A DNA stretch of 64,000 nucleotides from NCBI RefSeq assembly GCF_026109735.1, contig NZ_CP069620.1, positions 2,294,001 through 2,358,000 of the forward strand. The letters are read 5' to 3'. Below, in pieces: positions 13,911 to 44,712 of this stretch. Under the pieces are notes generated by a model. That model saw nothing but the letters and a program-made list of their open reading frames with translations, did no database searches and had not been told where the DNA came from. The translations under genes were made by a program, and so were the position numbers. Source of the DNA: Salinimicrobium tongyeongense. Its GTDB lineage: Bacteria; Bacteroidota; Bacteroidia; Flavobacteriales; Flavobacteriaceae. Positions within the stretch are counted from its first letter, which is position 1. Every line of letters starts with the position of its first letter.

Positions 13911-14013
13911 TGAAAAATGCCGTGACTTCGAGTGGATTTTGACTAGCGGAAGCTGGGGGAAATTTGTATCGAGAAGTCAGGCAGAGAAAGTAGAAACCAG
14001 ATGTAAAAAAAAT

Positions 14014-14048
14014 AAGAGGTGTCAAAAATGGCATTTTTGACACCTCTT
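14014..14048. repeat. Perfect 35-bp palindrome, AAAAATGGCATTTTT family
   Basis: Arms AAGAGGTGTCAAAAATG and its exact complement flank a single central base at 14031. The core AAAAATGGCATTTTT is the recurring intergenic motif. It lies 146 bases after argS and is not followed by a T run, so it is not an ordinary terminator on this strand. Confidence 0.85.
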
Positions 14049-14138
14049 CAGGAAAATTATTTTTAAATAATTTTCCGAAAAAATATCAATTTTGTAGCAG
14101 ATGTGAAGTTCAAAGTTTTCACTTCAGCCTCAAATCAT

Positions 14139-14146
14139 TAAATTTG
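14139..14146 (+). promoter_or_regulatory. Promoter -7 box of ffh
   Basis: TAAATTTG matches TAnnTTTG. TTTTC at 14116-14120, 18 bases upstream, resembles the -33 TTTTG. The 5' leader can form a small hairpin (ACTGCC 14149-14154 with GGCAGT 14165-14170). Confidence 0.65.
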
Positions 14147-14188
14147 CAACTGCCTGTAAAAGCCGGCAGTATTTAAATCTGAGAGATT

Positions 14189-15517
14189 ATGTTCGAAAGT
14201 TTAAGCGATAAGTTAGATAATGCCTTACACGTCCTGAAAGGACACGGGCAAATTACCGAAGTTAACGTTGCCGAAACTCTGAAAGAGGTGAGGCGGGCCC
14301 TGGTTGATGCCGATGTCAATTATAAAATTGCCAAAGAATTTACTAGCAAAGTAAAGGAAAAGGCACTGGGGCAGGACGTGCTTACCGCTTTAAAGCCGGG
14401 GCAAATGATGGTGAAGCTGGTGAAAGACGAGCTTACCACGCTTATGGGAGGAGATGCCGAAGGGATCAATCTTTCAGGTAACCCGTCTGTGATCCTTATG
14501 TCGGGGCTTCAGGGAAGTGGTAAAACTACTTTTTCGGGAAAACTGGCGAATTACTTAAAAACAAAGAAGACAAAAAAACCACTTTTGGTGGCCTGTGATG
14601 TTTACCGTCCTGCAGCAATCAATCAGCTGCACGTGGTAGGAGACCAGGTTGGGGTTGAGGTTTTTAGTGATGAAGGCAACCAGGATCCGGTAGCGATTTC
14701 GAAAGCTGCTATTGCACATGCAAAAGCAAACGGACATAATGTGGTAATTATAGATACGGCCGGGCGTCTTGCTGTTGATGAAGCGATGATGACCGAAATT
14801 GCCAATATTCACAGTGCCATCCAGCCGCAGGAAACACTTTTCGTGGTAGATTCCATGACAGGGCAGGATGCTGTGAATACAGCCAAGGCTTTCAACGACC
14901 GACTCAATTTCGACGGGGTGATCCTCACAAAACTCGACGGGGATACCCGTGGTGGAGCTGCGATCTCCATTAAATCTGTTGTTAACAAGCCAATCAAATT
15001 TATTGGTACGGGTGAGAAGATGGATGCGATTGATGTTTTCTATCCTTCCCGTATGGCCGATCGTATTCTTGGCATGGGAGACGTGGTGTCTCTTGTTGAA
15101 AGGGCGCAGGAGCAGTATGATGAAGAGGAAGCGAGAAAACTTCAGAAGAAGATCGCCAAAAATGAATTTGGATTTGATGACTTTTTGAACCAGCTTCAGC
15201 AAATCAAGAAGATGGGATCGATGAAAGACCTTATGGGAATGATCCCCGGGGCGGGAAAAATGCTGAAGGATGTGGAGATCGATGACGATGCTTTCAAACC
15301 TATTGAAGCCATTATTCACTCCATGACCCCTGAAGAACGTTCAAAACCATCAATCATAAATGCATCCCGTAAGAAAAGAATCGGAAAAGGATCGGGAACC
15401 TCGGTACAACAGGTAAACCAGCTTTTAAAGCAGTTTAGCCAGATGAGCAAAATGATGAAAATGATGCAGGGCGGCGGCGGAAGAAAGATGATGCAGATGA
15501 TGAAGGGAATGAAGTAA
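14189..15517 (+). CDS. ffh: Signal recognition particle protein Ffh
   Basis: SRP GTPase (442 residues) binds signal sequences and 4.5S RNA and delivers ribosomes to FtsY. The N domain begins MFESLSDKLDNALHVLKGHG. The G domain shows GLQGSGKTTFSGKLA, CDVYRPAAINQL, DTAGRLAVDEAMM and TKLDGDTRGGAA. The M domain is methionine-rich and ends MMKMMQGGGGRKMMQMMKGM. The stop is only 4 bases before an inverted repeat that bounds the following small gene, and no terminator intervenes. Confidence 0.97.
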   Translation: MFESLSDKLDNALHVLKGHGQITEVNVAETLKEVRRALVDADVNYKIAKEFTSKVKEKALGQDVLTALKPGQMMVKLVKDELTTLMGGDAEGINLSGNPSVILMSGLQGSGKTTFSGKLANYLKTKKTKKPLLVACDVYRPAAINQLHVVGDQVGVEVFSDEGNQDPVAISKAAIAHAKANGHNVVIIDTAGRLAVDEAMMTEIANIHSAIQPQETLFVVDSMTGQDAVNTAKAFNDRLNFDGVILTKLDGDTRGGAAISIKSVVNKPIKFIGTGEKMDAIDVFYPSRMADRILGMGDVVSLVERAQEQYDEEEARKLQKKIAKNEFGFDDFLNQLQQIKKMGSMKDLMGMIPGAGKMLKDVEIDDDAFKPIEAIIHSMTPEERSKPSIINASRKKRIGKGSGTSVQQVNQLLKQFSQMSKMMKMMQGGGGRKMMQMMKGMK

Positions 15518-15521
15518 GTGG

Positions 15522-15537
15522 TCAGTGTTCAGTGATC
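15522..15537. repeat. Left terminal inverted repeat
   Basis: TCAGTGTTCAGTGATC, exact reverse complement of 15976-15991. It starts 5 bases after the last base of the ffh stop codon. Confidence 0.85.
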
Positions 15538-15576
15538 GGTGTTCAGTGAGCAGCGAACATGATCTAAAACAGTATT

Positions 15577-15951
15577 ATGAGATTTCAGGAGTTGTTTGCT
15601 TATCAAAAGTCCATTGAACTTTCAATGCAGATTTTTGAGGTTTCAAAATCTTTTCCAAAAGAAGAAACTTATTCCCTCACTGATCAAATAAGGAGATCTT
15701 CCCGGAGTGTATCTGCTGCTATTGCTGAAGCTTATAGAAAACGAGATTATCCAAGACATTTCACGAGTAAACTGACAGATGGAGATGCCGAAAACTCTGA
15801 AACTCAAGTATGGCTTGAATACGCCTATAGATGTTCCTACCTTCCTAAGATTGATTATCAAAGACTGGTTGGTGAGAGTGAGGAGGTTGGAAAACTAATA
15901 AATTACATGATCCTAAATCCAGGAAAATTTGGGGTGAAGAAGGCAGAATAA
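15577..15951 (+). CDS. Four-helix-bundle protein, 23S rRNA intervening sequence (IVP/S23) family
   Basis: A 124-residue helical protein of the family (PF05635/TIGR02436 type) encoded in intervening sequences of 23S rRNA in Leptospira and Coxiella and as stand-alone genes elsewhere. The related Avd protein assists diversity-generating retroelements. Family features are the N-terminal FQELFAYQKSIELSMQIFEV, the basic LTDQIRRSSRSVSAAIAEAY and the second half with DAENSETQVWLEYAYRCSYL. The gene lies inside an inverted-repeat pair between ffh and folD. Its molecular role is unknown; RNA binding is plausible from the family. Confidence 0.88.
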   Translation: MRFQELFAYQKSIELSMQIFEVSKSFPKEETYSLTDQIRRSSRSVSAAIAEAYRKRDYPRHFTSKLTDGDAENSETQVWLEYAYRCSYLPKIDYQRLVGESEEVGKLINYMILNPGKFGVKKAE

Positions 15952-15975
15952 ATTACATATTTTAAACTGATCACT

Positions 15976-15991
15976 GATCACTGAACACTGA
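15976..15991. repeat. Right terminal inverted repeat
   Basis: GATCACTGAACACTGA, exact reverse complement of 15522-15537. With a 4-base gap the match extends further (GAACACTGA then TTAC against the complement of GTAAGTGG before the left copy). Confidence 0.85.
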
Positions 15992-16017
15992 TTACTAATA
16001 ACTGCATACTTATAAAC

Positions 16018-16917
16018 ATGGAGCTCCTCGACGGAAAAAAATTAAGCAACGACATTCAGGATGAAATTGCCCTGGAAGTTCAAAAAATGAAAGAACGCGG
16101 GGAGAAGGTCCCGCATTTAGCCGCTATTATTGTTGGTAGCGACGGTGCCAGCTTAACTTACGTGAATGCCAAGGTGAATGCCTGTAAGCGCGTGGGTTTT
16201 GAATCTTCAGAATACCGCATGTCTTCAAACACCAGTGAACTTGAACTCCTGGCAAAGATCGAAGAACTGAACAACAATGACGATATTGATGGCTTTATAG
16301 TGCAGTTGCCGCTTCCGCCGCAAATCAATACTCAAAAAGTGCTGTTGGCAGTGAACCCCGATAAGGATGTGGATGGATTTCACCCTACCAACTTTGGGAA
16401 GATGTCTCTTGATATGACTTCCTTTATTCCGGCGACTCCTTTCGGGATCCTGGAAATGCTGGAGCGGTACAACATTCCCACAAAAGGAAAACACACCTGT
16501 GTGATTGGACGTAGCTACATTGTGGGTCGGCCAATGAGTATCCTGATGGGAAGACAGGGGTTTCCCGGCAACTCTACAGTAACCCTTACGCACGAATTCA
16601 CTAAAAATATTACCCAGATCACTTCTCAGGCTGATATTATTATCATTGCTGTAGGAATTCCAAATTTCCTTAAAGCTGAAATGATTAAAGATGATGCTGT
16701 AGTAATTGATGTGGGAATCACCCGCGTTCCCGATGAAGCCAAATCCAAAGGCTACAGGATAGTAGGGGATGTAGATTTCGAAAATGTTTCAAAAAAGGCA
16801 AGTTACATCACTCCTGTTCCCGGCGGAGTAGGGCCCATGACCATTGCCATGCTGCTTAAAAATACCCTGCTGGCCCGGGAGGCGCACCGTGCAAGGAGAA
16901 AAAGCGTCAAAAGCTAA
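16018..16917 (+). CDS. folD: Bifunctional methylenetetrahydrofolate dehydrogenase/cyclohydrolase FolD
   Basis: Interconverts 5,10-methylene- and 10-formyl-tetrahydrofolate using NADP in one-carbon metabolism (299 residues). The catalytic Lys lies in LTYVNAKVNACKRVG. VQLPLPPQINTQKVL, DKDVDGFHPTNFGKM, the Rossmann loop VIGRSYIVGRPMSILM and PVPGGVGPMTIAMLLKNT are all family signatures. Other folate genes in the window are folE (36034) and folP (48633). It converges with the DUF1232 gene, leaving only 10 bases. Confidence 0.97.
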   Translation: MELLDGKKLSNDIQDEIALEVQKMKERGEKVPHLAAIIVGSDGASLTYVNAKVNACKRVGFESSEYRMSSNTSELELLAKIEELNNNDDIDGFIVQLPLPPQINTQKVLLAVNPDKDVDGFHPTNFGKMSLDMTSFIPATPFGILEMLERYNIPTKGKHTCVIGRSYIVGRPMSILMGRQGFPGNSTVTLTHEFTKNITQITSQADIIIIAVGIPNFLKAEMIKDDAVVIDVGITRVPDEAKSKGYRIVGDVDFENVSKKASYITPVPGGVGPMTIAMLLKNTLLAREAHRARRKSVKS

Positions 16918-16927
16918 ATCTTGCTAA

Positions 16928-17335
16928 TTACGAATTTAGCAGCCTGGCTTCATCGATCTTCCAGTCGAGATAAGCGTGTAGATCAGATTCAATGAACCGA
17001 ACGGCAACTGTGAAAAGTGCAAAATCGTCTACATAGCCTACTCCCGGAAGAAAGTCGGGCAGCATATCCATAGGATTGAAAACATAGAGCAGGGTCAATC
17101 CAATTGCGGCAATAGTAAACCACGGCATTTGGGTGTATTTTCCTTTTCTGTAATCTTTAAGCATTCCGAACATGAGTTTTCCAAGTTCGGAATACTTTTT
17201 CATGCCCGAACTGTTTAACTTTTTGTCAATGGCCTCTTTATTGTTCATGACCATTTCAAGATCCCCATCATCAACTTTGGAAATTTCGGTCTCGAGGTAA
17301 TCTTTGTTGAACTTCTTTTTTACATTCTCCAGCAT
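16928..17335 (-). CDS. YkvA family (DUF1232) membrane protein
   Basis: A 135-residue protein with a charged helical N-terminus and one clear hydrophobic segment (WFTIAAIGLTLLYVFNPMDM). The DUF1232 core follows, reading NPMDMLPDFLPGVGYVDDFA. Family function is unknown; it is a small membrane-associated domain. It is the last gene of a minus-strand run behind the AI-2E family exporter, 17 bases away. Confidence 0.88.
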   Translation of the reverse strand: MLENVKKKFNKDYLETEISKVDDGDLEMVMNNKEAIDKKLNSSGMKKYSELGKLMFGMLKDYRKGKYTQMPWFTIAAIGLTLLYVFNPMDMLPDFLPGVGYVDDFALFTVAVRFIESDLHAYLDWKIDEARLLNS

Positions 17336-44521: not shown

Positions 44522-44570
44522 GTTCCTGAAAGTTCAAAGTTTAACGTTCAAGGTTTAAAAATTAAGGGTA

Positions 44571-44654: not shown

Positions 44655-44712
44655 GCCAATTTCTAACATCTAATTTCTAAGATCTAAGATCTCACTTCTA
44701 AAATCTAACTTC
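44655..44712. repeat. Degenerate TTCTAA/ATCTAA repeat tract
   Basis: Successive words ATTTCTAACATCTAA, TTTCTAAGATCTAAGATCT and CACTTCTAAAATCTAACTTC make a short imperfect tandem array directly before the phosphodiesterase stop. Its complement shares vocabulary with 13873-13910. Confidence 0.4.

Follow-up and report, generated by a model that had tools for sequence, protein, structure and literature searches.

Proteins of the S23, or intervening-sequence protein (IVP), family have been annotated for decades with their function unassigned (PMC4990558). In Coxiella, the S23 ORF lies in the loop of an intervening sequence (IVS) of 428–444 nt, which has a 28-bp terminal stem and is associated with RNase III (PMC4990558). 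Homology of the Avd/bAvd proteins to the IVP/S23 family has also been described (PMC10053308). TAACTGA heptamer repeats form 7-nt intergenic tandem arrays near start codons and were reported in Beggiatoaceae, Cyanobacteria, and five Bacteroidetes (MacGregor 2015, PMC4679880). These arrays, described in the same phyla and with no protein partner, are the nearest prior work; because the main text of that report contains no S23, intervening-sequence or four-helix terms, no link between TAACTGA repeats and the IVP family is drawn (PMC4679880). In a literature search, with most subscription journals outside its scope, the pairing of an IVP gene with a repeat of its own was not found among the top matches listed.

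In this study, an IVP gene located between ffh and folD of Salinimicrobium tongyeongense was analysed together with its flanking repeats; the window is the whole 64,000-nt stretch of DNA under analysis. The genome is 3.51 Mb in one contig and contains 11 PF05635 genes as found by profile search. The gene (15577..15951, plus strand, 124 aa), identified by hits to PF05635 and TIGR02436 (four-helix bundle, 23S rRNA IVP, S23), is the only one between the repeat arms and has co-directional neighbours, ffh (SRP54; 14189..15517, plus strand) upstream and folD (16018..16917, plus strand) downstream. Exact word matching placed one copy of a perfect 16-bp inverted repeat at 15522..15537 (plus strand), 4 nt behind the ffh stop ending at 15517 and 39 nt ahead of the IVP gene, and the other at 15976..15991 (minus strand), 24 nt past the gene. 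In 3000 shuffles of the two spacers, the longest perfect inverted repeat was 12 bp (mean 5.9), which bears out the repeat reported in the initial annotation. With up to 2 mismatches, the 16-bp word occurred 4 times in the window, all within the two arms (0.02 expected).

The 16-bp repeat is the central part of a larger structure: from the end of ffh to the beginning of folD, a 7-nt word, AGTGNTC, is arrayed on both sides of the IVP gene in inverted orientation. The upstream arm (15518..15559, plus strand) carries six AGTGNTC-like heptads on the sense strand, as indicated by a lag-7 array at 15513–15549, a longer call and the inverted match to the other arm; the downstream arm (15961..16003, minus strand), detected as a lag-7 array and by its inverted match, carries the word on the opposite strand. 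Together they form an imperfect inverted repeat of 45 nt per arm with 76% identity. The sub-repeats noted earlier at both ends are real, but are in fact a 7-nt tandem array in each arm. The nearest named locus, in S. profundisediminis, has a protein of 92% identity and identical neighbours. An Rfam search over 14000–17000 gave nothing above gathering score and two chance-level hits. A scan with CAAATTCCAAATTCCA was uninformative because the backward control gave more matches (29 vs 23).

The family assignment made from the initial reading was upheld, the protein scoring 100.5 bits against PF05635 (cut-off 33.8) and 94.1 against TIGR02436 (cut-off 24). Matches were also found to bAvd (40.2 bits, cut-off 40) and PHROG 3206 Avd (E 6e-10), with DivGenRetAVD at 25.9, under its cut-off of 80. 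Relatives with solved structures were 2rld (E 3.4e-9) and 2gsc (E 1.2e-7) by sequence, with five chains per entry. No transposase, nuclease or polymerase domain was found in the protein with Pfam and NCBIfam profiles.

An empty ffh-folD junction in close relatives, proposed as a check on mobility, was found within the genus Salinimicrobium. The gene was present in 9 of 12 genomes, and the three empty spacers (L207, L241, and L245) were 50–114 nt long with zero words. Rather than a gene present in all relatives with the repeats absent, which the initial annotation had named as evidence against its proposal, 7 of the 9 filled sites had arms matching with a score of 15 or more. The other two, L243 and L244, had arm scores of 8.0 each; in L243 the word was changed and the protein only 59.5% identical, and in L244 the gene was broken. 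Outside the genus, 6 of the 28 loci viewed were filled and 22 were empty (18–100 nt), the empty ones having no words; the ffh-folD comparison drew on loci from 30 of the 60 genomes found. Truncated IVP frames occurred at this junction in L236, L244, L213, and L217, and the IVP gene of L031 had two stops. In L213, L216, and L227, also at ffh-folD, the word had in part contracted to a 6-nt unit, TCAGTC.

The own-genome copy L009 lies at hisH-hisA. Of 12 loci compared at this junction, 6 were filled (L261 with an early stop) and 6 were without the gene. By eye, an array built of a different word preceded hisA in four of the gene-less six; L268 had two facing arms enclosing no gene, and L269 was blank. 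The words at hisH-hisA differed between species within one genus. Empty and filled spacers, compared by eye at ffh-folD and hisH-hisA to look for a target-site duplication, were too different to align. In L259 and L262, an inverted pair of heptads lay around hisH itself, TATGAGTATTGAG ahead of it and CTCAATACTCAC behind it, without an IVP gene.

The clade of the window protein was defined as the best 80 of 505 loci, taking one genome per species (68–92% identity). At least 2 sense words upstream and at least 2 antisense words downstream within 150 nt were present at 64 of these 80 loci; 12 had them downstream only, 2 upstream only, and 2 on neither side. Polarity over the 80 loci was 285 sense to 17 antisense words upstream and 420 antisense to 53 sense words downstream. 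A single word is retained across the 8 genomic sites of the clade, which were defined by common flanking genes (32, 16, 15, 5, 4, 4, 2, and 2 loci). On the protein tree, the site label needed 14 changes, with 7 as the minimum for 8 sites; this tree was built from few columns and leaves many forks open, and its well-supported branches force one change per site only. Losses and the transfer of whole operon pieces may be among the site changes. When loci from different sites were compared, the DNA of the 25 best pairs was alike over the gene with up to 100 nt upstream and up to 112 nt downstream, a similarity confined to the gene and its arms. Both neighbours were co-directional at 70 of 77 clade loci (drawn from the 8 sites only), compared with 104 of 178 control triplets, and at 60 of 66 loci from a diverse set (57 of 67 when genes were called by a different program). 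The units being placed in the direction of transcription, some tie to transcription is indicated.

The layout at ffh-folD is not a unique oddity and recurs around many PF05635 genes. To score a flank pair, the 200 nt ahead of the gene were matched to the 200 nt behind it in reverse complement. In the S. tongyeongense genome, the own flank pairs of the 11 genes scored 10 to 21 (mispaired mean 8.55), and the own partner was the best of its row for 8 of the 11, with three scoring 11.5 or less; no clear heptad pair was seen near L004 and L010, and by eye the words vary between the IVP genes of this genome. Other IVP genes with ends of like design and solo repeats, both suggested as targets of a search, were found in the same genome. 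For a wider survey, 110 loci were assembled: the own 11, 29 taken from a sample of 41 family genomes, another 40 copies in those genomes, and 30 from a phylum sample in which 90 of 118 genomes had a PF05635 match. Removal of L130 (contig end) and of L010 and L110 (short frames) left 107.

In these 107 diverse genes, the mean inverted score of own flanks was 14.7 compared with 8.65 for re-paired flanks, and none of 20000 permutations was as high. A score of at least 11.5 was reached by 73 IVP genes (34 being below it) and by 5.4% of 74 neighbouring ORFs, and a score of at least 14.5 by 48 and 1.4%, respectively. Position-to-position matching in both flanks peaked at lags 7, 14, and 21 (0.34–0.38 vs 0.29 in shuffled sequence), with other lags at most 0.305. 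A fixed detector found 70 lag-7 arrays, plus a few with lag 8, across 32,100 nt of sequence flanking IVP genes. In IVP-rich genomes, 400,000 nt taken where no IVP gene is listed yielded 4, and an equal length from IVP-free genomes yielded 0. Arrays were about 218-fold denser per nt beside IVP genes, relative to stretches that are mostly coding and not restricted to intergenic DNA; for this reason, the neighbouring ORFs are the fairer control. A strict array call was obtained upstream of 58 genes and downstream of 59, on both sides in only 41 of the 107, the called arms having medians of 4.6 and 4.7 words. Because the genes are related and some are also in the 80-locus clade set, these counts are not independent.

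Two further expectations were examined in the survey and rejected. Over the whole family, word similarity did not follow protein relationship (Spearman 0.03, 10754 pairs), the score rising only above 50–60% identity; in looser clades the mean cross-site score was 8.5 to 11.8 vs 8.6, the largest (32 genes) showing none. A word that follows the protein clade is clear in the window clade (68% identity or more) and appears weak beyond it. Compensatory change at orthologous sites gave an own-pair excess in 2 of 3 site groups, where 114 and 253 of 20000 permutations reached the observed value; the third group had no excess (12964 of 20000). The result was too weak, with relatedness uncorrected.

Arrays also occur without an IVP gene. 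Two such solo heptad arrays lie in the window, strand unassigned: one of a TAACTTC-type word at 44661..44699, similar by eye to the word before hisA at L009, and one of a GTTCAAG/GTTTAA-type word at 44527..44558, found by array detection. An array of the window word was present in 5 of 15 family genomes with the clade protein (at least 60% identity) and in 4 of 85 without it (p 0.003; 0.013 with the own genome excluded). With the cut at 53% identity, the figures were 5 of 20 and 4 of 80 (p 0.015; 0.042 with the own genome excluded). Since arrays are also present in genomes without the clade protein, solo words are not strictly tied to a present protein. That solo arrays are dense in IVP-rich genomes was considered and rejected: the counts (4 vs 0 per 400 kb, or 12 vs 6 at a looser threshold) were too few, G+C differed (0.37 in IVP-rich and 0.47 in IVP-free genomes), and other lags were as common there. 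Away from IVP genes, lag 7 was no commoner than other lags.

Several solo arrays of the own genome had particular surroundings. Three rRNA operons have an AGTGNTC array between their 23S and 5S genes (L015, L022, and L026, each at 1501–1516; Rfam placement), with no IVP match listed there. Solo arrays at L016, L024, and L025 adjoin what is apparently a single repeated IS-like sequence, its marker words having the same spacing in each copy, as if the arrays were landing sites. Mosaic sites, with AGTGNTC beside CAAATTC- or TTCAAGA-type words in one spacer, were seen at L018, L019, and L020.

In tblastn searches, the protein matched 18 plasmid records, all cyanobacterial, and no phage record. Among 12 of the 18 examined, 9 had strong inverted arms (16 to 32). 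The period in this group differs, with peaks at lags 8 and 16 and words of the GCAGGGGA/GCAGAGGA type. Because most plasmid copies have one common word, high scores were also obtained from mispaired plasmid flanks (mean 13.1, 95th percentile 21.7, the latter passed by 5 of 12). The two flanking arrays of L253 pointed the same way, L254 had an upstream array only, and L255 had little. At 5 of the 12 (L246, L250, L251, L254, and L257), the IVP gene adjoins a gene for a tyrosine recombinase, integrase or DDE transposase.

Recurrence of the layout around this family, in many relatives and on cyanobacterial plasmids, gives the gene and its repeats the appearance of a single unit that moves slowly. 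We give a probability of roughly 0.5 to the reading that the gene and two inverted heptad arrays form one rarely moving unit of about 500 bp whose protein recognises its own word. Comparison of sequences argues for it through the layout, the period, the polarity, the one word at several sites of the window clade, the empty sites, and the decayed copies; binding of the word by the protein, the nucleic acid bound, and the act of insertion are what we infer. The IVP protein would most likely recognise its own word, and each word might conceivably be read by one subunit, given a median of about 4.7 words in an arm and structures of five chains, although this is a suggestion only. The arrays would be the ends of the unit, whose rare insertions would follow the direction of transcription and fall between co-directional genes. 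The unit would persist long by descent and then decay in place, leaving broken genes and solo arrays. Insertion would need a host enzyme, as the unit encodes none. A reverse transcriptase was considered as a movement helper and rejected; the only one found in the genome by PF00078 is a Drt6/Drt4-like defence type (L270, 646–2421, at about 2.93 Mb), about 0.6 Mb away. The minimal mobile element suggested in the initial annotation is accordingly favoured by relocation, empty sites, decayed copies, and solo arrays, all of it support by comparison.

The same annotation had also offered an RNA unit cut out of the ffh transcript or formed by its folding. On this reading, the arms would pair as a stem around the IVP frame, and RNase III or the IVP protein would act on that stem in the operon mRNA. 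The layout is like that of the Coxiella IVS (PMC4990558), the units are in sense orientation between co-directional genes, and in the predicted fold of the sense transcript the arms pair with each other (z −2.7), but the antisense fold is almost as good (z −2.6). Selection for pairing should favour G-U mismatches in the sense strand; A-C mismatches were commoner instead, with 112 G-U vs 154 A-C in the 107 genes and 119 vs 157 in the clade of 80. Duplex energies in sense and antisense were equal (−42.6 and −42.3; −49.2 and −49.2). Both tests, applied to the 107 genes and the 80-locus clade, were negative for RNA-level selection on the arms, and with no strand asymmetry the arms read as two copies of a DNA word and not as a selected RNA stem. 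Moreover, pairing demands neither a 7-nt period nor a kept word, so that a stem does not account for the word structure, and none of the genome's 11 IVP loci lies in rRNA. An RNA unit is therefore rather doubtful.

TRAP, which binds spaced triplets, is the model for another explanation, according to which the sense upstream array is an autoregulatory RNA site for the oligomeric protein, the complementary downstream array competes with that site, and solo arrays mark more regulated operons. The repeated spaced words (median 4.6–4.7 units per arm), the strict polarity, the position of the arrays between a stop and the next start, and an excess of G over C in the upstream arms of 50 genes vs 5 would suit such a site, although the wider upstream region leans likewise to a lesser degree. 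The arms are, however, equally complementary in antisense; relocation, empty sites, and decay suit a selfish unit at least as well, and words that vary between congeneric species at hisH-hisA are odd for a regulon. We regard this explanation as unlikely. Ordinary tandem-repeat growth in spacers, with the IVP gene as a passenger, agrees with perfect expansions at L054, L153, and G019 and with the 6-nt variant in L213, L216, and L227, but is very improbable given the array excess beside IVP genes (even against mostly coding stretches), the matched inverted words on both sides relative to neighbouring-ORF controls, and the fixed polarity and period.

If the gene and its arrays are a rarely moving unit, a wider generalisation is possible, although we lean against it: widespread minimal mobile units would carry a four-helix-bundle oligomer that reads a 7-nt word in Bacteroidota or an 8-nt word in Cyanobacteria, one per subunit, with the arrays serving as binding sites and ends and the word code shifting between protein clades. 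Intervening sequences in rRNA would then be members that landed in 23S rRNA. A protein family travelling with its own repeat word offers a direct and cheap test of what S23/IVP proteins bind. It also joins two orphan observations, IVP genes and the intergenic 7-nt and 8-nt repeats of Bacteroidota and Cyanobacteria, and IVP units may account for part of the mosaic spacers in these genomes.

Several known systems resemble the unit in part. In contrast to an insertion sequence or transposon, the sole gene between the arms has no transposase or recombinase domain hit. Diversity-generating retroelements have an accessory protein, Avd/bAvd, related to the IVP protein by profile, but no reverse transcriptase of its own lies beside the IVP gene. 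TAACTGA repeats are different in that they consist of one word and are nearly all direct repeats (PMC4679880). The 23S rRNA IVS has the same protein family within terminal inverted repeats of similar length (PMC4990558); the unit described here lies between protein genes, with no rRNA hit at the 11 IVP loci of the genome, and its ends are heptad arrays with gene-specific words and no sign of RNA-pairing selection. In REP/RAYT systems (REPtron, REPIN), a protein gene is likewise framed by inverted copies of its own repeat, with solo copies dispersed, whereas the protein enclosed here has no Y1 HUH transposase as judged by Pfam and NCBIfam, and the repeats are 7-nt or 8-nt tandem arrays with many different words per genome. 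The unit thus falls outside REP/RAYT by the missing Y1 transposase and outside the rRNA intervening sequences by location. In parts it is closest to the rRNA intervening sequence, and in layout it is closest to REP/RAYT, having a REP/RAYT-like arrangement without a recognisable transposase.
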